The translations under genes were made by a program, and so were the position numbers. The notes beneath the pieces were generated by a model, which was given only the letters and a program-made list of their open reading frames with translations, had not been told where the DNA came from and searched no databases. Shown one piece after another: positions 18,339 to 28,169 of a DNA stretch of 32,784 nt. Location of the stretch: contig CALUSG010000046.1 of assembly GCA_944323365.1 (NCBI GenBank), positions 1 to 32,784 of the forward strand. Reading direction: 5' to 3'. Position 1 is the stretch's first letter. Each line of letters begins with the position of its first letter. Origin of the DNA: Candidatus Gastranaerophilales bacterium (GTDB lineage Bacteria; Cyanobacteriota; Vampirovibrionia; Gastranaerophilales; Gastranaerophilaceae).

Positions 18339-19247
18339 TTATTGTAATTGTCTTTTTAACTCATATTTAACTTCAGATAAAGGTCCATTATTAGGTGTTC
18401 TGACAGTATTGAAGTAGTTTCTGGCATAACTGAACGGGTATTTAGGAAGCCAAGTCAATTTTATAAATATAGAAACAGTTTCAGCACCTTGAGATAACAT
18501 TAATTCATCAATTGTTTGTTCATGTGCAGGTGAAATAGAAGAAAATAATTTCAGAAAATAATCAGTAAAAGTCACAACGGAATAACCTGTTGCAGTTCCT
18601 GGATTAGTAATTAATTCTGATATTTTAAAGTTTTCATTACCTTTTATATTTTGAATGTCATGTGGAAGCGTGAACGTTTCTCCTTTTAATTGTTCTATTT
18701 CATACCACTGACCATTATAGTTTATTCTCAAAATGTTAGGTTTTGGCATATAAATATCATCAAATTTATTTTCCAATATAGTATTGCCATTCATGTCTAC
18801 TATACCGTATCTAAAATTTTTGCAAGTCAAAAACATTCCTCCAAACAATAAATCGATAGAGGAATATTCTCTAGGTAAGATTTCTTTGCCATGTTCATCA
18901 TATAACGCATATTTATTACCACGTCCTATTTTTAAATATTTTCCGAGAACCCTTTCAACATGAGTATATTTTATAGGGACGAGTATGTTGCCATGATAAT
19001 CTATAAGTCCGAATTTGCTTTTCTTTTGAACTAAAAATGATGACTCTCCAACTCTTATCATTTTTTTATATATTGGGTTAATCAAAATATTTCCGTTGGC
19101 ATCTTTTAATCCAAAAAGATTATCTTGAGAAAAAACTTTTGCATTACTTAAATTTTCAGTAACATTTTCTGTTACGTTACCTGTTAATGCATATGAACAC
19201 CCTTGAATCAGAATTATTGATATTAAAAAAATTAAAAACTTTTTCAT
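18339..19247 (-). CDS. WG-repeat secreted protein or lipoprotein
   Basis: This 302-residue protein has a signal sequence (MKKFLIFLISIILIQGCSYA). The Cys after IQG could be a lipoprotein site, although Gln at -2 is unusual; otherwise cleavage after SYA is likely. Four WG-type repeats follow between about residues 44 and 165: LFGLKDANGNILINPIY, KFGLIDYHGNILVPIKY, KYALYDEHGKEILPREY and RYGIVDMNGNTILENKF. The last 130 residues are unassigned. WG repeats form small beta-hairpins and are frequent in secreted proteins of unknown binding role. It precedes the glutaredoxin gene and is divergent from the second AsmA-like gene. Confidence 0.85.
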   Translation of the reverse strand: MKKFLIFLISIILIQGCSYALTGNVTENVTENLSNAKVFSQDNLFGLKDANGNILINPIYKKMIRVGESSFLVQKKSKFGLIDYHGNILVPIKYTHVERVLGKYLKIGRGNKYALYDEHGKEILPREYSSIDLLFGGMFLTCKNFRYGIVDMNGNTILENKFDDIYMPKPNILRINYNGQWYEIEQLKGETFTLPHDIQNIKGNENFKISELITNPGTATGYSVVTFTDYFLKLFSSISPAHEQTIDELMLSQGAETVSIFIKLTWLPKYPFSYARNYFNTVRTPNNGPLSEVKYELKRQLQ

Positions 19248-19274
19248 AACTATATAATAGCATAAAATTAATTA

Positions 19275-19283
19275 TGTTATAAT
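19275..19283 (+). promoter_or_regulatory. Extended -10 promoter of the second AsmA-like gene
   Basis: TGTTATAAT matches TGN-TATAAT exactly. It lies 21 bases before the ATG at 19305 and is followed by the AAGGGAG ribosome site. Confidence 0.65.
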
Positions 19284-19304
19284 TTTATTATTAAGGGAGA
19301 TGTG

Positions 19305-22091
19305 ATGAATAAAAAAATAGTAATTGGTATTTTAAGCGTATTAATAGTAATTATAGGCCTTTTGTCGTTTTTATATATAAAAATTCTGCCAAACGTTTTA
19401 TCTAGTGCTAAATTTATAAACTTTGTAGAAAAAGAGGTTAAGAAAATAACTGATGCGGATTTGAATATAGAATCTCCTGTTTTAAAAACAGGTTTTTCTC
19501 CGGCAATAGGATTTAAGGCAAAGGAAATTAAGCTTACAAAGAACAATGCTGATTTATTGGAAATAAAAAATCTTGATACGCAAATTTCTTTGAAAGATAT
19601 AATAAAACAAAGTATAATTTTAGATAAATTTTTTGTGGAATACATTTTTGCAGATGTAAATAAGCTTATGGCATTATTACCTCAGCAGGAGCAACCTGAA
19701 AATCAAGAGAAATCAAGTTGGACATTAGATTTTTACGATTCAATTTTAGGGCTAAAAAAAGGTACAATACTTTATCATATTGACCCTGATGTAGATATAA
19801 AACTTGATGCGGATAAATTATTCATTAACAATACAAAAAAATATGAACGTTTTGTACATTTTAATTTTGTAACAACAATTAAAAAAGCAGATAAAACACT
19901 TTATTTTGCACTTGCTGATAAAAATAAAGTTATTATTAAAGAAAAACAATTATTAGTAAAAGATTGTATTTTTAATGTAAACAAATCGGATGTACATATT
20001 AATGCTTATGCTTCAAGAAAAACAGGCATGAATATAAATCTTTCATCTAAAAATTTTAGTATAGATGATATTATAGCAATTGTAGGCTCAAATCTTTTGA
20101 TAAGTAATGGTAATGAAATCATTTCTTATTTTAAGGATATAAAAGGCAGTTTTGATTTTGACCTAAATCTTACGAAAAATGATTTAAATGGCACAATTGA
20201 CATGAATAAACTTTCATTGAAAGTCGTTCCTGTTGCTGATTTGCCATTAACAGTTGATAAAGGACAAATCATTTTAACATCAAAAGATATAAAGTTAAAT
20301 GGGTTTAAAGGTTATTATGGTTCAACCAGGGAAAACCATATAGATCTTAATGGTGTAGTAAAAGATTATACAAAATCATGTGATACAGAAATTATTGTAA
20401 AAACAGTTGCAACAAATGAATTTGCAGAGAAATATTTATCTAAGCTGGTTGGTTTTCCGTTTAAAATTATAGGTAATGCGGGTACAAGTGTTATTATAAA
20501 ATCACTGTATAATAAAATTGATGTAGTATGGGCGTCAAAATTGTCTAAAGGCGAAGATATTTTGGTAGACGGGGCATCTTTAACTCCGACAGGTTGGGAT
20601 AGAGCTGTTAAAGCAGATTTGCATTTTGAAAATAATATTTTAAATATAAAAGATATAAGTTATTATATTGCATCAGAACTTGTACGTGGTGTAAAAGTTA
20701 AACCTGTATTATCTTTAAACGGTAATATTGATTTTTCAAAACAAGTACCTTTTGTAAAAGATTTAGGCTTTGTTATTCCTAATCCTTTACCAAGTGAATT
20801 TTTAAATGTTTTAATAGGTCAAAAATTATTTAAAGGCGGTAAATTTTACGGCAATCTTGCAATGGTTAATAATGGTGAATATCCTGTAATTGATGGCAAG
20901 TTAAACGCGGATAAGATAATAGTTCCGTCCCAGCGGGTATTTATAAAAAGCGGAGAATTTTATACAGATAAGAATAATATTCATATAAAATCTGAAGGCT
21001 GGTACAAAAGATCTAAATTCGATTTTTCCGGAACAATAGCAAATAAAATTATGTTTCCGGTGGTTATAAAAAATATTGATTTTGGTATTGATAAAATTGA
21101 TATAGAACGTGTAATGAAATCATTTAATCAACAGAATACTGCCGCTGTCCAGCAGCAGCAAAAAGTTGTTGAAAATGTTGAATATGATTATGAAAACTAC
21201 AATGAAGAGGAAGATACAAATGCCGTTGCTTTTGATGTTAACAATCTTATAATCGAAAGATGTATATTACGTCTTGATGATGGTAAATATAAAGATATTA
21301 AATTCGGTAACCTAAAAGCAAATTTAACTTTAAATAAAGATAATATATTAGAATTAAAATCAAACAGATTTGATATTGCAGATGGTATTTCATCTGTGAA
21401 AGTATTTTGCGATTTAAAAAAACATAAATATAATATCACTTTAGGAATAAAAGATGTAAATTCGGATGTTATGTCATCTTCTTTGCTTAATTTACCACGT
21501 GAAATATCCGGTAAAGCCAGCGGATTGATTGACTTAAATACGGATAACTCATTGAAGCTTAACGGGACTATAAAATTTCTAGTACAAAATGGTACAATAC
21601 AAAAGATAGGCTTAATTGAATATATTTTAAAATTTGCGGCAGTATTCAGAAATCCTATTGCAATGATAAGCCCGGCAGCTATATCAGATATGGTAAATAT
21701 TCCTGAAGGAAATTTTGATAAGATTACCGGTGAATTATATTTAAAAAATAATGTTGTAGAGCTGCTTAAAATAAAATCTTCAGCACCGCAGCTAAGTAGT
21801 TTTATCATTGGAAGATATGATATTGTGACCGGTGATGCTATTTTAAGAATATATACCAAATTTAGTAGTGCACATAAGGGCTTTGCCGGGGTTCTGCGTA
21901 ACTTTTCACTAAACAGTCTGGCAAATAGAATTCCGTTAAGCAGTAGAAGTGATGCAAATTATTATGCCTCTGAGCTTGAACAATTACCGCCAATCGATGC
22001 TGATGAAAAAGATTGCCAGGTATTTCTAACAAAAGTTGATGGAGATATTGTAAGTAATAATTTCATTTCTTCTTTGAAAAAGATAAAATAG
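19305..22091 (+). CDS. Second AsmA-like envelope protein
   Basis: This 928-residue protein has an N-terminal membrane helix (about residues 5-26) followed by long beta-strand-rich sequence and an AsmA-like C-terminal region (ISGKASGLIDLNTDNSLKLNGTIKFLVQNGTIQKIGLIEYILKF, then GNFDKITGELYLKNNVVELLKIKSSAP). It is built like the 1,238-residue protein at 13,165 but is shorter, and contains a low-complexity Gln/Glu linker near residue 620 (QQQQKVVENVEYDYENYNEEE). It probably bridges inner and outer membrane in lipid transport. A GTG immediately before the ATG is in frame, but GGGAG is better spaced for the ATG at 19305. Confidence 0.86.
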   Translation: MNKKIVIGILSVLIVIIGLLSFLYIKILPNVLSSAKFINFVEKEVKKITDADLNIESPVLKTGFSPAIGFKAKEIKLTKNNADLLEIKNLDTQISLKDIIKQSIILDKFFVEYIFADVNKLMALLPQQEQPENQEKSSWTLDFYDSILGLKKGTILYHIDPDVDIKLDADKLFINNTKKYERFVHFNFVTTIKKADKTLYFALADKNKVIIKEKQLLVKDCIFNVNKSDVHINAYASRKTGMNINLSSKNFSIDDIIAIVGSNLLISNGNEIISYFKDIKGSFDFDLNLTKNDLNGTIDMNKLSLKVVPVADLPLTVDKGQIILTSKDIKLNGFKGYYGSTRENHIDLNGVVKDYTKSCDTEIIVKTVATNEFAEKYLSKLVGFPFKIIGNAGTSVIIKSLYNKIDVVWASKLSKGEDILVDGASLTPTGWDRAVKADLHFENNILNIKDISYYIASELVRGVKVKPVLSLNGNIDFSKQVPFVKDLGFVIPNPLPSEFLNVLIGQKLFKGGKFYGNLAMVNNGEYPVIDGKLNADKIIVPSQRVFIKSGEFYTDKNNIHIKSEGWYKRSKFDFSGTIANKIMFPVVIKNIDFGIDKIDIERVMKSFNQQNTAAVQQQQKVVENVEYDYENYNEEEDTNAVAFDVNNLIIERCILRLDDGKYKDIKFGNLKANLTLNKDNILELKSNRFDIADGISSVKVFCDLKKHKYNITLGIKDVNSDVMSSSLLNLPREISGKASGLIDLNTDNSLKLNGTIKFLVQNGTIQKIGLIEYILKFAAVFRNPIAMISPAAISDMVNIPEGNFDKITGELYLKNNVVELLKIKSSAPQLSSFIIGRYDIVTGDAILRIYTKFSSAHKGFAGVLRNFSLNSLANRIPLSSRSDANYYASELEQLPPIDADEKDCQVFLTKVDGDIVSNNFISSLKKIK

Positions 22092-22167: not shown

Positions 22168-22353
22168 ATGAACGGTAAAATTAGTGTAATAGTAATAGTT
22201 GCGGCTGTAAGTATATTGACAATAACTTTTTGCTTTATTCAACCCAAAATGCATAAGCCGTTCCAGCTTAATATTATAGAATATTTGATAAAAATTAATA
22301 ATGATGGAAGTATGACAACAATTAAAAGTATTACTACAGAGGTAAGGAAATGA
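22168..22353 (+). CDS. Small membrane-anchored protein with MHKPF motif
   Basis: I do not recognise this 61-residue protein. One membrane helix (about residues 5-24) is followed by IQPKMHKPFQLNIIEYLIKI and a short polar end. The TonB-like protein three genes further on begins with the same pattern: helix, then FQPNMHKPF, then YEIVIEE. The start is supported by that alignment although it has no ribosome site, so the mRNA is probably leaderless. The stop overlaps the next gene by four bases. It may be an anchor or a reduced paralogue of the TonB-like protein. Confidence 0.72.
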   Translation: MNGKISVIVIVAAVSILTITFCFIQPKMHKPFQLNIIEYLIKINNDGSMTTIKSITTEVRK

Positions 22354-23366
22354 AAAAGTTACTTGCTTTAATGTTCGTATTTATATATATGTTCGCTTCA
22401 AATATTTGTTTTGCAGCGGGAGAAGTTTATTACCTGAAAAATTCTAATCTGCAAAATGTTTCTAATATTGTAAAACAAGTATTATCCGAAAAAGATTACA
22501 CTATTAAAAAAGAAAATCCTTTTTATGCAATATCAAATAAAAATAGTGCAGAGCGTGTGGTTATTATATTACAGCCAAATGCTCAAAATCTGTATTATTA
22601 TATAGAAGAGGATGGCAAAAAAATTAATAAAGCTTTATTAAAAAGTTTAAAATCACAAAATATTGAATATGAAGAGTATGAAAATGCAACGCATTTAGAG
22701 TATTTTGCCGGTGTAGCTCAAAAAGTCTTAAATGGAGAAAAAACGACATATTCATTTGAACAGCCCGGGATAACTCCTCAAAGAACAACATTATCAAATC
22801 CTAAAGTACTGCATGGTTCGGTACAAAAAGTCGGTAAAGGTACCGTATTAGATGTGTATTTACAGCACGCTATTAATACAGCAACAGCAAGTGTAGGTGA
22901 TAATGTAGTTGCTATATTAAAAAACAACTGGTTAGTAGACTCTCAAATAGTTGCACCTCAGGGCAGTGTTTTATACGGGACTTTAACCAAAGCGGATCAT
23001 GCACGTATAGGGATGAGAAACGGTGGTGTTGAAATTGATTTTAATAAACTTGTAACTCCTGATGGAAAAACATATAATTTGGTAACTCAAAAAATTGATT
23101 TTGATGTGACGAACGAAGGTGCAGTAAGTTCATCAATAAAAAAAGTTGCAACAGCTACAGCTATAGGTGCAGCTGCGGGAATACTGCTTTCATTATTAGG
23201 TGGAGGTGATTATATAGGGAAAGGTGCTGCAATAGGGGCAGGTGTTGCCGGCGGTGTTGCTCTTATGACATCTGCTGCTGCAAAAGGTGTAGATGCAGAA
23301 ATCCCTTCTTATACCGAACTTCAGGTGGTTATAGATGAGGATATTAAGGTTATATTGAATTATTAA
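22350..23366 (+). CDS. Secreted protein with VirB10-like/glycine-zipper region
   Basis: This 338-residue protein has a signal peptide (MKKLLALMFVFIYMFASNICFA). Residues 23-140 are mixed alpha/beta with no recognised family. Residues 155-250 (VGDNVVAILKNNWLVDSQIVAPQGSVLYG...GGVEIDFNKLVTPDGKTYNL) read like the VirB10/TrbI-type beta-barrel pattern. A Gly-rich glycine-zipper stretch (about 265-310, IGAAAGILLSLLGGGDYIGKGAAIGAGVAGG) then inserts before the last strand. I infer a periplasmic or outer-membrane-inserting part of a trans-envelope complex; no other conjugation gene is present. The AGAGG site overlaps the upstream gene. Confidence 0.75.
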   Translation: MKKLLALMFVFIYMFASNICFAAGEVYYLKNSNLQNVSNIVKQVLSEKDYTIKKENPFYAISNKNSAERVVIILQPNAQNLYYYIEEDGKKINKALLKSLKSQNIEYEEYENATHLEYFAGVAQKVLNGEKTTYSFEQPGITPQRTTLSNPKVLHGSVQKVGKGTVLDVYLQHAINTATASVGDNVVAILKNNWLVDSQIVAPQGSVLYGTLTKADHARIGMRNGGVEIDFNKLVTPDGKTYNLVTQKIDFDVTNEGAVSSSIKKVATATAIGAAAGILLSLLGGGDYIGKGAAIGAGVAGGVALMTSAAAKGVDAEIPSYTELQVVIDEDIKVILNY

Positions 23367-23377
23367 AAGGGTGTATT

Positions 23378-24046
23378 ATGAATAAACGATTGATAATTAT
23401 AGGTTTTTTAATTTTAATTATTAGTGTTATCGGAAAATTATTGTTTTCAGCGTTAAAAAACATTGAATTAGATGAATTTCATCCGGCAGCAGTGATATTT
23501 GTTATAGATTCATCAGCCTCAAATCAAGAGAAACTTAATGAAGAAATAAAATATTTGCGAAATATATGCTCAATTTTGGATCCTGAAGATGTTATAAAGA
23601 TACTAAAAGTTTCAGAAAAATCTTATTTGATTTATGAAGGTGCTCCGACTGACGGTTCAATAATTAATGATACTTTAAAAGAATTTACAAAACTAGATAC
23701 ATCAGATTATGGTACAGCATATGGAGAAGCTCTTAAAAAAGCATTTGAGCACGCTTTGACAATGAAAAAAGAAGGTTATGTACCTTCTATTGTTGTCATA
23801 GGTGATTTGGAAAATGAAGGTGATATTTCAAAACAAATTGATTGGGATACGTTACCCGAAAACGTGGAAAATGTAAAAAAATATGTGCCTGAAATTTCAA
23901 TGTTATTTGCATATGCACATCCTGAAAAATTAGATTTAGTAAAAACAAAATTAACACCTGTTTTAGGTGAAAAAAAATTAATTGTGGTAAATGAACAAAC
24001 CGCTGCAAAATCTCAGCGTAAACTTTTAGAGGCAATCGGAAGATAG
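23378..24046 (+). CDS. Membrane-anchored VWA-like protein
   Basis: This 222-residue protein has an N-terminal membrane helix (about residues 5-24) and then a VWA-like domain: AAVIFVIDSSAS gives the MIDAS Asp44-x-Ser46-x-Ser48, Thr113 in DYGTAYGEAL is the likely third ligand, and Asp143 in VVIGDLENEGD the fourth. The domain faces the periplasm if the helix is a simple anchor. VWA domains bind partner proteins through a metal. The gene is 11 bases after the glycine-zipper gene with an AAGGG site. The VWA call rests on motif spacing and is moderately firm. Confidence 0.75.
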   Translation: MNKRLIIIGFLILIISVIGKLLFSALKNIELDEFHPAAVIFVIDSSASNQEKLNEEIKYLRNICSILDPEDVIKILKVSEKSYLIYEGAPTDGSIINDTLKEFTKLDTSDYGTAYGEALKKAFEHALTMKKEGYVPSIVVIGDLENEGDISKQIDWDTLPENVENVKKYVPEISMLFAYAHPEKLDLVKTKLTPVLGEKKLIVVNEQTAAKSQRKLLEAIGR

Positions 24047-24055
24047 GAGAAATAA

Positions 24056-25648
24056 ATGACTTTTACTATAATAACAAAGAATAACGAAAAAACTTTTGCT
24101 AATAAAGAGCTTGTAAATATCTCATCACGTGATGGATATGATTATAAACTTGATTTGGGTTTTGATTTTATGCTTACAGTTGAATATAACAAAGATACAA
24201 ATAGATATGTATTATTAAACCAGTTTAATTGTAGCAATTTTTTATTCAAGGGACAACCGCTTCCTCAGCGTTTGGAAATAGATAAAGTCTGTAAAATTAT
24301 GGTAAAAGATTCCGATGAATTTATAAGTATAAAAGTACTGCAGGAGTTTGTAACTACTAAAGTCACACCTGAAAATTTGACAGAGCAGGATTTGAAAGAT
24401 TTATACGGCGAAGATGTTAATGCTTCAGCAAGACTAAAAATAGAAAGAAGAAAGGCTGAACTAGAGGAAGCAAGAGTTGCAATAACAAAACAAGTTGCAT
24501 ATTCAATAAATGATTTAAGAAGTAAACTTTCAATGAATTCAAAAGCAGGCATTGTAATGCATATCGCATTGTTTATAGCATCTGTAGTTTTAGCTTTTGG
24601 TGTTGCGAATTACTTGACAGGTCTATCATTAAAAGATGCCGGCAGTATAATTCAAATGCCTGTCAATATGAAAATAGTTTTGATGTATTCAGTTATAATT
24701 TATGGTGTGGGATTGGTAGCTAAACAGGGTGTATATTTATTTTTACAAAATAAACTTGATGAACTTAGTAATAATGCCGCTGAAAAAATTATGATAGTTT
24801 TATCAGTGTTATTTTATGTTGCAATATATTTAATAAATTTACTATATTACTTGGCTCCGGGTTCAATGACATTTTTCGCAATTTTTATGTCGCTATTTTT
24901 TACGGGGACATGTGCTGTGCTTGCTGCCGCATGCGGATATTTTAAAAGTGCAAAGGTAGAGTTGTCAAAAGAATTGAGCAAATATGAATATCGGGAAGAT
25001 TTTGAAATTGTTGTAAAAGAATATCAGCAATGGATTGAACGATTTATCAATAATTTAAGTAATTCAAAGATTAGAAACATAAAAGACAAATTGTTTATGT
25101 TGCAATTAAAATCTGTTGGAGAAATTTGTTTGGGTATTTTAACGGCACCATTTTTGGCATATGGTGTTTCAAACACTTTAGCAATGTGTTTCCCTGAAGC
25201 TGCAGGTTGGATTAGAATTTCAGGGTTAAGATTTTCTCCTGTATTTTTAGTACTTGCAACTTTTATGATAATATTTGCATTTTTTGCTTTTGTTAATGCA
25301 TTTTTCTGTAATAAAAAAATACAGGCCTCAAATGTTTTGAAAAATGATGGCTTTAGTAATTATTTTAAGCATGGTGTAGAAATATATGGGTTACAAGGTA
25401 TAAAAAAACTTAATACAGATATGCAGCGTTCATTTATTATAGGTTTGTGTATAATATTTATAGAATTTTCAATGAATATATCGTATTTTATGCAAGAAAT
25501 GGGCGGTGACTTAGGAGGTATGTTCTTAAGTTCTGTCGCAGCAATGGTTCCGACAGCATTATTGATTGCAGAAACTTATATGCTAAGTCAGACAAAATTT
25601 GATATTTACGCTTGTGATGAATTGTTAGCTAAATTGGATAGAGATTAA
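24056..25648 (+). CDS. Polytopic membrane protein with soluble N-terminal domain
   Basis: This 530-residue protein has three parts. Residues 1-100 form a soluble beta-rich domain whose last strands (YVLLNQFNCSNFLFKGQPLP, then IMVKDSDEFISIKVL) look FHA-like, but the FHA Gly-Arg and Ser-x-x-His residues are not visible. A charged helical stretch follows (105-160). Then about eight membrane helices lie near 164-190, 204-230, 245-267, 270-298, 357-382, 393-420, 457-480 and 487-510, with a long Glu/Lys-rich cytoplasmic loop at 300-355. I do not recognise the family. It is likely the inner-membrane core of the operon's complex. AGGAGAAATAA precedes the ATG. Confidence 0.78.
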   Translation: MTFTIITKNNEKTFANKELVNISSRDGYDYKLDLGFDFMLTVEYNKDTNRYVLLNQFNCSNFLFKGQPLPQRLEIDKVCKIMVKDSDEFISIKVLQEFVTTKVTPENLTEQDLKDLYGEDVNASARLKIERRKAELEEARVAITKQVAYSINDLRSKLSMNSKAGIVMHIALFIASVVLAFGVANYLTGLSLKDAGSIIQMPVNMKIVLMYSVIIYGVGLVAKQGVYLFLQNKLDELSNNAAEKIMIVLSVLFYVAIYLINLLYYLAPGSMTFFAIFMSLFFTGTCAVLAAACGYFKSAKVELSKELSKYEYREDFEIVVKEYQQWIERFINNLSNSKIRNIKDKLFMLQLKSVGEICLGILTAPFLAYGVSNTLAMCFPEAAGWIRISGLRFSPVFLVLATFMIIFAFFAFVNAFFCNKKIQASNVLKNDGFSNYFKHGVEIYGLQGIKKLNTDMQRSFIIGLCIIFIEFSMNISYFMQEMGGDLGGMFLSSVAAMVPTALLIAETYMLSQTKFDIYACDELLAKLDRD

Positions 25649-25650
25649 TT

Positions 25651-26403
25651 TTGTATAGAATTATTTTTAGTTTAATAATTGCAATAGTTATTATTTTTAC
25701 ATTGTGTGTAAGTATTTTTCAACCGAATATGCACAAACCTTTTATGGTGTATAATTCATCATACGAAATTGTTATAGAAGAACCTGATGTTGAGATAGAA
25801 AAAAATATTCCAACACAGATAAATAAAAATCAAGCTGTAAATAAAACAGATAAAGTAAAAACTTATACAACACCTAAGTCTGAAATAGTTGAAAAGAATG
25901 TAATAACAACAACTAAAACTGACATTCAAAAGCCGACTCAAAAAACAATAAAACAAGAAACGACTCCGAATTTTTTAACACAATTCCAAACTAATGTTGT
26001 AGAATCAGCTCCTTCTCAGACAATTACTGAGGAAGAAAAAGCTCAGCAAGAAGTTATATTATGGAATGAATGGCGATCAAATTTACAAAATAAAATAATG
26101 CAGGATGTTCAATTACCAATAGTTCCTGAGGGAACGATTTTTAAATTTTCGTTTAATGTTGACAAATATGGTAAAATAAGTAATGTACAAACATGGTCAC
26201 TGTCACCGGCATATACACCATATGCAATTCAATATATTGCTCCTGTTATAAGAAGTTATCAAGGACATGATATTTTGAATTTCCCAAAAGGATCAAACAG
26301 GTATAGTACACTTGTTGAAGGCGGATGGAAGATATCTCAAACAGCTAAATTTAGTACACCGGAAGATTACAGTGACACTGAAAAAGTTATGAACAGGAAT
26401 TAA
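25651..26403 (+). CDS. TonB-like protein with MHKPF motif
   Basis: This 250-residue protein starts with TTG, two bases after the previous stop; no earlier or later start would keep the membrane helix, and the same helix plus FQPNMHKPF recurs in the 61-residue protein at 22168. After the helix (about residues 4-24) comes a Lys/Thr/Pro/Gln-rich linker (about 45-115) and a C-terminal domain (about 130-235) in the TonB/TolA C-terminal style: WNEWRSNLQNKIMQDVQLP, then FKFSFNVDKYGKISNVQTWS. It could link the inner-membrane component to an outer-membrane partner. No ribosome site is evident beyond GAGAT. Confidence 0.72.
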   Translation: MYRIIFSLIIAIVIIFTLCVSIFQPNMHKPFMVYNSSYEIVIEEPDVEIEKNIPTQINKNQAVNKTDKVKTYTTPKSEIVEKNVITTTKTDIQKPTQKTIKQETTPNFLTQFQTNVVESAPSQTITEEEKAQQEVILWNEWRSNLQNKIMQDVQLPIVPEGTIFKFSFNVDKYGKISNVQTWSLSPAYTPYAIQYIAPVIRSYQGHDILNFPKGSNRYSTLVEGGWKISQTAKFSTPEDYSDTEKVMNRN

Positions 26404-26405
26404 AT

Positions 26406-27269
26406 ATGTATAAATGTACTGATTGTGGACACGAATATGATATAAAACCGGATTATTGTGATTGCGGAAATAATGTTTTTGAACAAATTGAGATTATAGA
26501 TAAGACTGATAGGCCACAAAACAGAGTTCGAAAAACCGGTATAAAAAAATCTGATAGAAAATCAGATATATTATCATGGTTAATATTTACTAGCTGTATA
26601 ATTTTTTCTATATTATCGATAATATTTATAGATATAGGCGATAAAACAGTAGAAGTTGCCGAAAATATTCAGAAACAAACAAAAGTAGAAATTCCATCAA
26701 TAGACGAGTTATGGGTTAATACCAAGGCAATTCCTAAACAATCTGAAGAAAAGCCTATAATTAAATCAATTATAAATATATCTAAACCTATCGAACAGGT
26801 AAAACAAAAAAAAGTTAAAGTGGAGCCAACGGTTTCTCCTAATACTGTGAGTAATCAGAAAACTACAAAACCAACTATGACACAAGAACAAAAAGATAAG
26901 ATAGTGAAACGGCTTACAACGCCTAAATTATCAGAAACAGAGAAAAAACCGGTAATAGATGAAGCTGCGATAAAACGTGAATTGGTTTCATATAAAATTG
27001 CATTAAGAAATAAAATCGCATCGAATATTGACTTTGCAAGTGTAATAGGTGATGGAAATTGTGCGGTTAGTTTTAAAATCAATGACAAAGGGAATTTAAT
27101 TGATAGAAAATTTTCTATACAATCGAATAATAACAGTCTTAACGATGTTGTTTATTCAGCGATGATACAAAATCCAAGTTTTAACCCTCCTCCACAGGGA
27201 TATAAAAATGAAACATTGACTTTAAATGTAAAAATGTACGGCGGTAATTTTGAAGTCAGTTTAAAATAA
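26406..27269 (+). CDS. Zinc-ribbon TolA/TonB-like protein
   Basis: This 287-residue protein begins with a small zinc ribbon (Cys4 and Cys7, then Cys18 and Cys20). A basic stretch and one membrane helix follow (about 55-77), then a Lys/Pro/Thr/Gln-rich spacer (about 90-190), and a TolA/TonB C-terminal-like domain (about 195-287: ALRNKIASNIDFASVIGDGNCAVSFKINDKGNLIDRKFS, then PSFNPPPQGY). The ribbon lies on the cytoplasmic side and the C-terminus in the periplasm. The gene starts two bases after the TonB-like gene and abuts the convergent VWA gene. A zinc ribbon on a TolA-type protein is unusual to my knowledge. Confidence 0.75.
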   Translation: MYKCTDCGHEYDIKPDYCDCGNNVFEQIEIIDKTDRPQNRVRKTGIKKSDRKSDILSWLIFTSCIIFSILSIIFIDIGDKTVEVAENIQKQTKVEIPSIDELWVNTKAIPKQSEEKPIIKSIINISKPIEQVKQKKVKVEPTVSPNTVSNQKTTKPTMTQEQKDKIVKRLTTPKLSETEKKPVIDEAAIKRELVSYKIALRNKIASNIDFASVIGDGNCAVSFKINDKGNLIDRKFSIQSNNNSLNDVVYSAMIQNPSFNPPPQGYKNETLTLNVKMYGGNFEVSLK

Positions 27270-28169
27270 TTAATTACCAATGAATTCATATTTTTGAGCT
27301 GGTTGCGAATCAGTTTTAGGAGCATTTTGGATTGATTCTTGTAAAACATTTACAAAACTAGATATGTCATCAGTATTATAAAAAGTTCCATGTGTATAAT
27401 CTGCAAGGCATTTAAGTTCAGTAGAATCAGCAGAAACAAGCACAACATCAATGATGATATCATTTCTTTTAGCAACTAATGCTCTAGCAAAAGCACAAGG
27501 ATCTCCGCCGCAGTTTTCTCCGCCATCAGTTATCAAAATTATTTTTTTCTTATAACTGGTAGGTAATCCGGCAAAATCAAATGTAACAGCTTGCTCTAAT
27601 CCTAATGTTAAAGGTGTAGATCCGCCTATTGAAACAGAATTCATACCGGCAATAAGCTTTTGTGCATCATAAGGCATTACAGGTACAATTGTCGATGTTG
27701 CAGAACAAGAGCCGGATGTTGTTCCTAGATATGAAGATGTTTTGGTTTGTACTTTATATTTACCGTTTTTATCTTTTTTTATTGATTTAACCATATTAAC
27801 TATAGGAGAATATGGATTATTTCCGCTATCATGACCAAATACTCTAAATCCGATTTTAGTTGATGAAGGAAGTTGTGAAACAATTGCGTTCATATAATTT
27901 TTTGCGGCTTCAATCCAATAGTACATACTTCCTGAGTAATCCATAACTATATCAATTGTGCTTATTGAATTCAATGTAGCTGTTTTTTGTGATATATAAT
28001 TTGGTGCATAATAATTATTGTACAAATTTTTTACAACATTTGAATTTTGTTGTATAGCTCCTGTCGGAGATATTACTTTTCCACCTGTATTCACTTTGTA
28101 TTTTGTTGAAGCAAATACGTAAGTTGATGATAAACATATAAGTAATAAAGATGTTAGTATTTTTTTCAT
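27270..28169 (-). CDS. Secreted VWA-domain protein
   Basis: This 299-residue protein has a signal peptide (MKKILTSLLLICLSSTYVFA) and a VWA domain from about residue 70 to 275. The MIDAS is complete: Asp77-x-Ser79-Gly-Ser81-Met, Thr185 in GGSTPLTLG and Asp215 in ILITDGGENCGGDPC. Cys155, Cys220, Cys225 and Cys254 could form disulfides. The C-terminal tail is Gln/Pro/Lys-rich. It meets the six-gene operon tail to tail with no gap, so it may belong to the same function but has its own promoter. It has no clear ribosome site. Its binding partner is unknown. Confidence 0.92.
   Translation of the reverse strand: MKKILTSLLLICLSSTYVFASTKYKVNTGGKVISPTGAIQQNSNVVKNLYNNYYAPNYISQKTATLNSISTIDIVMDYSGSMYYWIEAAKNYMNAIVSQLPSSTKIGFRVFGHDSGNNPYSPIVNMVKSIKKDKNGKYKVQTKTSSYLGTTSGSCSATSTIVPVMPYDAQKLIAGMNSVSIGGSTPLTLGLEQAVTFDFAGLPTSYKKKIILITDGGENCGGDPCAFARALVAKRNDIIIDVVLVSADSTELKCLADYTHGTFYNTDDISSFVNVLQESIQNAPKTDSQPAQKYEFIGN

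Follow-up and report, generated by a model that had tools for sequence, protein, structure and literature searches.

Positions 1 to 32,784 of contig CALUSG010000046.1 (assembly GCA_944323365.1, Candidatus Gastranaerophilales bacterium), a stretch of 32,784 nucleotides that we call the window, carry a six-gene operon encoding, in order, a 61-residue anchor, a glycine-zipper protein (gz338), a membrane VWA protein (VWA222), a protein combining an FHA fold with eight membrane helices (FHA-8TM, here tm530), a TonB-like protein (TonB250) and a zinc-ribbon TolA-like protein (TolA287). We found that this gene set is one conserved unit, and we propose with moderate confidence that it encodes a lineage-specific Ton/Tol-like trans-envelope system of the Gastranaerophilaceae, a non-photosynthetic cyanobacterial family of gut bacteria, in which the FHA-8TM protein would serve as the inner-membrane base. 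As far as our searches reach, the conserved module appears to be undescribed.

The order gz–VWA–8TM–TonB–TolA recurs across 97 Gastranaerophilaceae tm530 loci, among which the identity of the tm530 protein goes down to about 40%. The homologues came from two sources, 59 relatives and a public genome collection (184 loci confirmed and 80 kept, whose neighborhoods were then read), and some loci of both sources belong to the same genome. Near tm530, a TonB gene was found in 93 loci, a VWA gene in 91, and gz and TolA genes in 83 each, with contig ends explaining part of the absences. The vwa and TM8 genes adjoin in 91/97 loci (median gap, 13 bases) and TM8 and tonB in 93/97 (median gap, 2 bases), while the median gaps between gz and vwa and between tonB and tolA are 14 and 3 bases, respectively. 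Independent profile searches of 59 genomes gave one and the same result for VWA222 and for the zinc-ribbon TolA: each was detected in 20/20 tm530 genomes and in 0/39 of the others (p 4e-16, a value that overstates the co-inheritance because the genomes are related and not independent); two matches to the generic TonB C-terminus alone (G001 and G006) were not counted as zinc-ribbon TolA. TonB250 occurred in 19 of the 20 tm530 genomes, against one weak match among the 39 others, and the pattern of presence and absence recurs inside one genus (4/16 members) and across 17 genera. A preliminary description of the operon, made from the sequence alone, was to be given up if the six genes did not occur together in related genomes; the 97 loci and the all-or-none pattern across 59 genomes show that the genes do occur together. 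Full-length tm530 was present in 95/146 genomes sampled from the order and 97/292 from the phylum, counts that leave out five matches to the FHA part alone, and it is confined to one family with the exception of G051, a 66%-complete metagenome-assembled genome (MAG) in which the match lies on an 8.7-kb contig and binning error is possible. The closest public relatives sit in Candidatus Gastranaerophilales or Melainabacteria MAGs, chiefly from gut and rumen, and a plasmid collection gave no match to the operon. Operons of the Gastranaerophilales type were also seen under titles reading "uncultured Acinetobacter sp." (L080, L090 and L091), where the organism names look wrong.

All six open reading frames (ORFs) lie on the plus strand at 22168 to 27269, with a 4-base overlap followed by gaps of 11, 9, 2 and 2 bases, exactly as the preliminary description had placed them. 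They are coding, because the ratio of nonsynonymous to synonymous substitution rates (dN/dS) is 0.04-0.16 for five of the genes against a congener and 0.40 for the 61-residue anchor gene, the latter being noisier and taken against a more distant relative. A chance arrangement or misread ORFs were ruled out by synteny, co-occurrence and dN/dS. The promoter scan performed at chance level (39 matches versus 39.2 expected), and promoter and terminator scans were not used.

TonB250 (25651 to 26403, plus strand, TTG start) comprises a membrane helix, a PxMHK motif, a low-complexity linker and a conserved C-terminal domain, and TolA287 (26406 to 27269, plus strand) comprises an N-terminal zinc ribbon (C4, C7, C18 and C20), a membrane helix, a linker and a TonB_C domain, so that a single membrane helix and a long linker are common to both. 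The zinc ribbon CxxC...CxC of TolA287 is invariant, TonB_2 was matched in 39/40 of its homologues, and its TonB_C is related to the C-terminus of the standard TonB that this genome also encodes (E 2e-8). Pfam recognized no domain in 40 TonB250 homologues, and the distant TonB/TolA likeness of this protein was visible by profile comparison only, through its relation to TolA287 (E 9.8e-7 over the full length and 3e-5 for the C-terminal part); with that qualification, the TonB-like, TolA-like and zinc-ribbon assignments made beforehand hold. When the TolA and VWA profiles were run against PDB sequences, the matches (a PPR protein and a designed coiled coil) were rejected as composition artefacts. 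The 61-residue protein (22168 to 22353, plus strand) has one N-terminal membrane helix, in keeping with its earlier designation as a small anchor, after which come PxMHKPF and two short segments of strand-like character. It is homologous to the first 50 residues of TonB250 (E 1.3e-13, PxMHK being common to both) and, judged by sequence, is a truncated copy of the TonB250 N-terminus; its gene lies upstream of gz here and between tonB and tolA in another clade. TonB and TolA dock on ExbB and TolQ via the helix motif SHLS with a conserved His (PMC10907165; PMC12204202), and a His in the membrane helix was found in 0/40 TonB250 and 0/40 TolA287 homologues. Because this His is missing, the two proteins are not expected on ExbB or TolQ by way of SHLS, which would make tm530 their natural partner.

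The glycine-zipper protein gz338 (22350 to 23366, plus strand) contains a signal peptide, an N-terminal domain, a TrbI/VirB10-type region and a glycine zipper, and the secreted VirB10-like/glycine-zipper character attributed to it previously is supported by matches to TrbI in 12/30 homologues (best, 1.6e-7) and to Gly-zipper_YMGG in 14/30. It is a paralogue of gz249, a protein of the standard Ton operon (E 4e-29), and a gz-TonB-ExbB-ExbD-ExbD operon is present on another contig of the host genome (1.70 Mb, 97% complete), whose sole PF01618 gene lies on contig C61. The order gz-TonB-ExbB was seen in 9/9 genomes examined across the class. Relative to the standard Ton operon, gz and TonB are retained in the tm530 operon, whereas ExbB-ExbD-ExbD is missing and VWA and FHA-8TM are found in its stead; in this respect the set is less novel, being a recognizable variation on the operon of the class. 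Standard Ton operons in which a TrbI/glycine-zipper protein gene precedes tonB and exbD is present as two different genes were observed at L159:4713-8787 and in L180-L187, and most of these genomes have no detectable TonB-dependent receptor. The PF00593 receptor barrel was not detected in the genome of the window nor in 16/20 carriers, in a search that could miss divergent barrels. An explanation of the operon by the supply of TonB-dependent receptors was rejected, since these were detected in 4/20 carriers and 9/39 non-carriers (p 1.0).

The presence of a standard motor raises the alternative that the TonB-like proteins are extra adaptors of the housekeeping ExbB-ExbD-ExbD set, with tm530 and the VWA protein as a cargo or receptor platform. 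Of 59 relatives, all have ExbB and 58 have ExbD, and one motor commonly serves several TonBs, which fits this reading. So does the region that follows the membrane helix of TonB250 and of the anchor, which is strand-like, proline-flanked and loosely like the ExbD-binding D-box (PMC10907165). However, the membrane-helix His is absent from all 80 homologues, profile comparison related none of the N-termini of TonB250, TolA287 and the anchor clearly to that of the standard TonB (E 0.03-0.08, with a single sequence on one side of the comparison), and the standard motor is kept with or without the tm530 operon. We regard this alternative as unlikely, but still deserving of serious attention.

The protein proposed as the base, tm530 (24056 to 25648, plus strand), is predicted from profile, fold and model evidence to consist of a cytoplasmic FHA fold and eight membrane helices arranged in two homologous four-helix halves. 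Its residues 1-98 (24056 to 24349, plus strand) adopt an FHA fold matching 6ccd (Rv1747 FHA-1) with Z 12.7 and a root-mean-square deviation of 2.2 over 93 residues, and the Arg and SxxH used for phosphothreonine binding are not conserved in this domain among 23 homologues. A stand-alone FHA-type ORF of about 100 residues with 38% identity to the tm530 N-terminus stands beside a TolC-like gene in the same genus (for example at L002:1495-1794, on contig C44 of G000) and occurs in nearly all genomes of the genus, with the operon or without it. The remainder of tm530, modeled alone from 64 sequences (mean predicted local distance difference test score, 86; predicted template modeling score, 0.71), has eight membrane helices and a long helical stalk; between helices 5 and 6 runs a segment of high conservation. 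The eight-helix protein with a soluble N-terminal domain of the preliminary description is thereby upheld, with long helices at the eight membrane-segment positions. Profile comparison indicated that the two four-helix halves are homologous (E 0.0005-0.002), a score reached by 0/150 column shuffles preserving the hydrophobic pattern, and the existence of two halves in tm530 and of two homologous anchors (TonB250 and the 61-residue protein) suggests two equivalent docking sites. The protein also has a nearly invariant segment, TAPFLAYGVSNTLA..CFPEAAGW.RISG, and its invariant E470 and E506 lie inside predicted helices 7 and 8, where such membrane glutamates would suit ion coupling.

Searches of Pfam, NCBIfam and PDB sequences gave no credible match for tm530, and the fold search gave no clear match, only weak Z values of up to 7.9 spread over unrelated proteins, a result that falls short of showing a new fold. 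An NCBIfam hit to a carbamoyl phosphate synthase-like family (4.5e-4) covered the FHA and stalk region only, lay far below the cut-off and was rejected. These searches bear on another explanation, that tm530 is a transporter or channel for a solute and the TonB, VWA and gz proteins are its periplasmic and outer-membrane extension, providing an import or export route and not a force transducer. Eight helices in a tandem-duplicated 4+4 arrangement are found in many transporters, and the invariant glutamates and the nearly invariant segment would also fit such a protein. Nevertheless, no transporter family or fold was matched, so that the check on which the preliminary description would have given up a partner role for the 530-residue protein came back clear of known transporters, and we consider this explanation improbable.

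VWA222 (23378 to 24046, plus strand) has an N-terminal membrane helix followed by a von Willebrand A (VWA) domain that is predicted to be periplasmic. It matches VWA_2 (PF13519) at 3.8e-6 and retains an intact metal ion-dependent adhesion site (MIDAS) with invariant D44xS46xS48, T113 and D143, which substantiates the membrane VWA-like protein recognized earlier. Its helix contains no H or D in 30 homologues, and it has no MotA/ExbB-type or tolQ neighbor in the operon of the window. A second VWA gene, vwaD (27270 to 28169, minus strand), is convergent with the operon, abuts it and encodes a secreted protein (VWA, 9.7e-8). Of the 97 loci, 37 have a vwaD homologue on the opposite strand, which in 35 of them immediately follows tolA, with a median overlap of 4 bases, and within the genus a close orthologue (83% identity) occurs in operon carriers only, the contig of carrier G004 ending at this point. 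Co-inherited in this way, vwaD belongs to the set as its seventh member. In loci without the membrane VWA gene, vwaD adjoins in 6/6, compared with 31/91 of the others, a hint, and given the relatedness of the loci no more than a lead, that the two VWA proteins are interchangeable. At L051:3172-6939, four tandem vwaD-like secreted VWA genes are divergent from a second operon copy that has no membrane VWA gene. On the other side of the operon, a WG-repeat protein gene (minus strand) and a 929-residue AsmA-like ORF occupy 18339-22091 of the window; because this pair is present in some relatives only, it was not counted in the unit.

Comparison with known systems shows partial likeness to several. 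The operon shares with the Ton system, in the form of the gz-TonB-ExbB-ExbD-ExbD operon of the class, a leading gz paralogue and a one-helix TonB_C protein with a long linker, but it has no ExbB or ExbD genes, includes VWA and FHA-8TM genes and two unlike TonB-type proteins, lacks the membrane His, and in most carriers goes without a detectable receptor. The presence of TolA-like inner-membrane transducers recalls Tol-Pal, whereas TolQ, TolR, TolB and Pal are missing among the operon proteins, as is the SHLS His; two OmpA-family genes lie on other contigs of the host genome. Gene partners elsewhere in that genome were sought by family search only. The known vWA force transducers have in their helix either the SHLS His or an Asp of the pore and are encoded beside tolQ (PMC12204202, Williams-Jones et al. 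2025). VWA222 resembles them in its membrane helix and VWA domain and in a gene set with force-transducer traits, but differs in having no SHLS His, pore Asp or tolQ neighbor and in the separate TonB_C proteins of its operon. The TrbI-like region in 12 of 30 gz338 homologues recalls VirB10/TrbI of type IV secretion; gz338, however, has a signal peptide and not an inner-membrane anchor with a cytoplasmic part, it has a glycine zipper, and in the loci examined its gene belongs to Ton-type operons. In the Myxococcus Agl-Glt machine, GltG contains FHA and TonB domains and a single helix, and GltG and GltJ are TolA/TonB-like (PMC3169522, PMC5349195); according to a reference cited in PMC12204202, the VWA adhesin CglB acts in this machine. 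FHA, TonB-type transducers and VWA are thus united in one trans-envelope system there as here, but domain order and phylum differ, and FHA is attached to the eight-helix protein here and not to TonB. A surface-adhesion or gliding-type apparatus of the Agl-Glt kind with the VWA proteins as adhesins, which this common domain vocabulary and the secreted, convergent and locally four-fold amplified vwaD would favor, seems very doubtful given that the operon proteins include no AglRQS-type motor and no TPR protein (TPR partners were not searched in the rest of the genome) and that FHA is fused to eight helices. Because for each of the Ton, Tol, vWA-transducer and Agl-Glt families defining features were looked for and found to be missing, we file the set as a variant of TonB/TolA-type trans-envelope systems outside these families. 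The earlier statement that no named system has this set holds for everything searched, and the open literature that we searched contained nothing of this kind for Gastranaerophilales, and nothing relevant on TonB in Gastranaerophilales or Melainabacteria.

In the Ton/Tol-like system that we favor, tm530 would form the inner-membrane base in place of the ExbB/ExbD of the Ton system. TonB250 and TolA287 would be docked on it by means of their membrane helices, and their flexible linkers and TonB/TolA-type C-terminal domains would extend through the periplasm to the outer membrane; the 61-residue anchor, with its TonB250-like helix and PxMHK, would probably take up an equivalent position on the base. 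The gz protein may lie on the periplasmic or outer-membrane side, where its paralogue gz249 is also presumed to be, the two VWA proteins may have metal-dependent ligands, either periplasmic or on the surface, and the FHA domain and zinc ribbon may offer cytoplasmic control or scaffold surfaces. The likely job would be to pass force, or a signal in the form of a conformational change, to a component of the outer membrane or the surface other than a classical TonB-dependent receptor. From the parts and their synteny we infer one envelope-spanning machine, as the preliminary description had done; complex formation, the docking sites, the spanning of the envelope, the energy source, the purpose and a motor role for the eight-helix protein are presumed in the same model.

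Several observations weigh against this model. The standard ExbB-ExbD-ExbD set in the genome could drive TonB250 and TolA287. None of 23 tm530 homologues matched the MotA_ExbB family, and profile comparison of tm530 with the genomes' own ExbB and MotA gave P 0.3-0.5, compared with 2e-4 for the ExbB-MotA control; tm530 as a diverged ExbB or MotA is thus unsupported by profile comparison, and a similarity to these motors, which the preliminary description had thought worth checking, was not found. Because tm530 shows neither ExbB/MotA sequence similarity nor a clear structural match, a motor role for it has no direct support. At the level of the gene set, TolA287 is non-adjacent in a few loci, the zinc-ribbon match in G016 and G022 is weak and located elsewhere in the genome, and vwa222 is absent from six of the 97 loci. 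A bolder version, in which tm530 is the founder of an ion-driven motor family unrelated to MotA/ExbB/TolQ and powers TonB-type transducers via its two homologous halves and E470/E506, strikes us as a long shot.

To our knowledge, all TonB/TolA-type transducers described so far are powered by a motor of the MotA/ExbB/TolQ class. Two transducers without the docking His, encoded together with an FHA-8TM protein of no known family, would represent either a new way of anchoring and energizing trans-envelope transducers or a new use of an old motor. In both cases, the operon provides a testable candidate for the envelope biology of the Gastranaerophilales, which are common uncultured gut bacteria.

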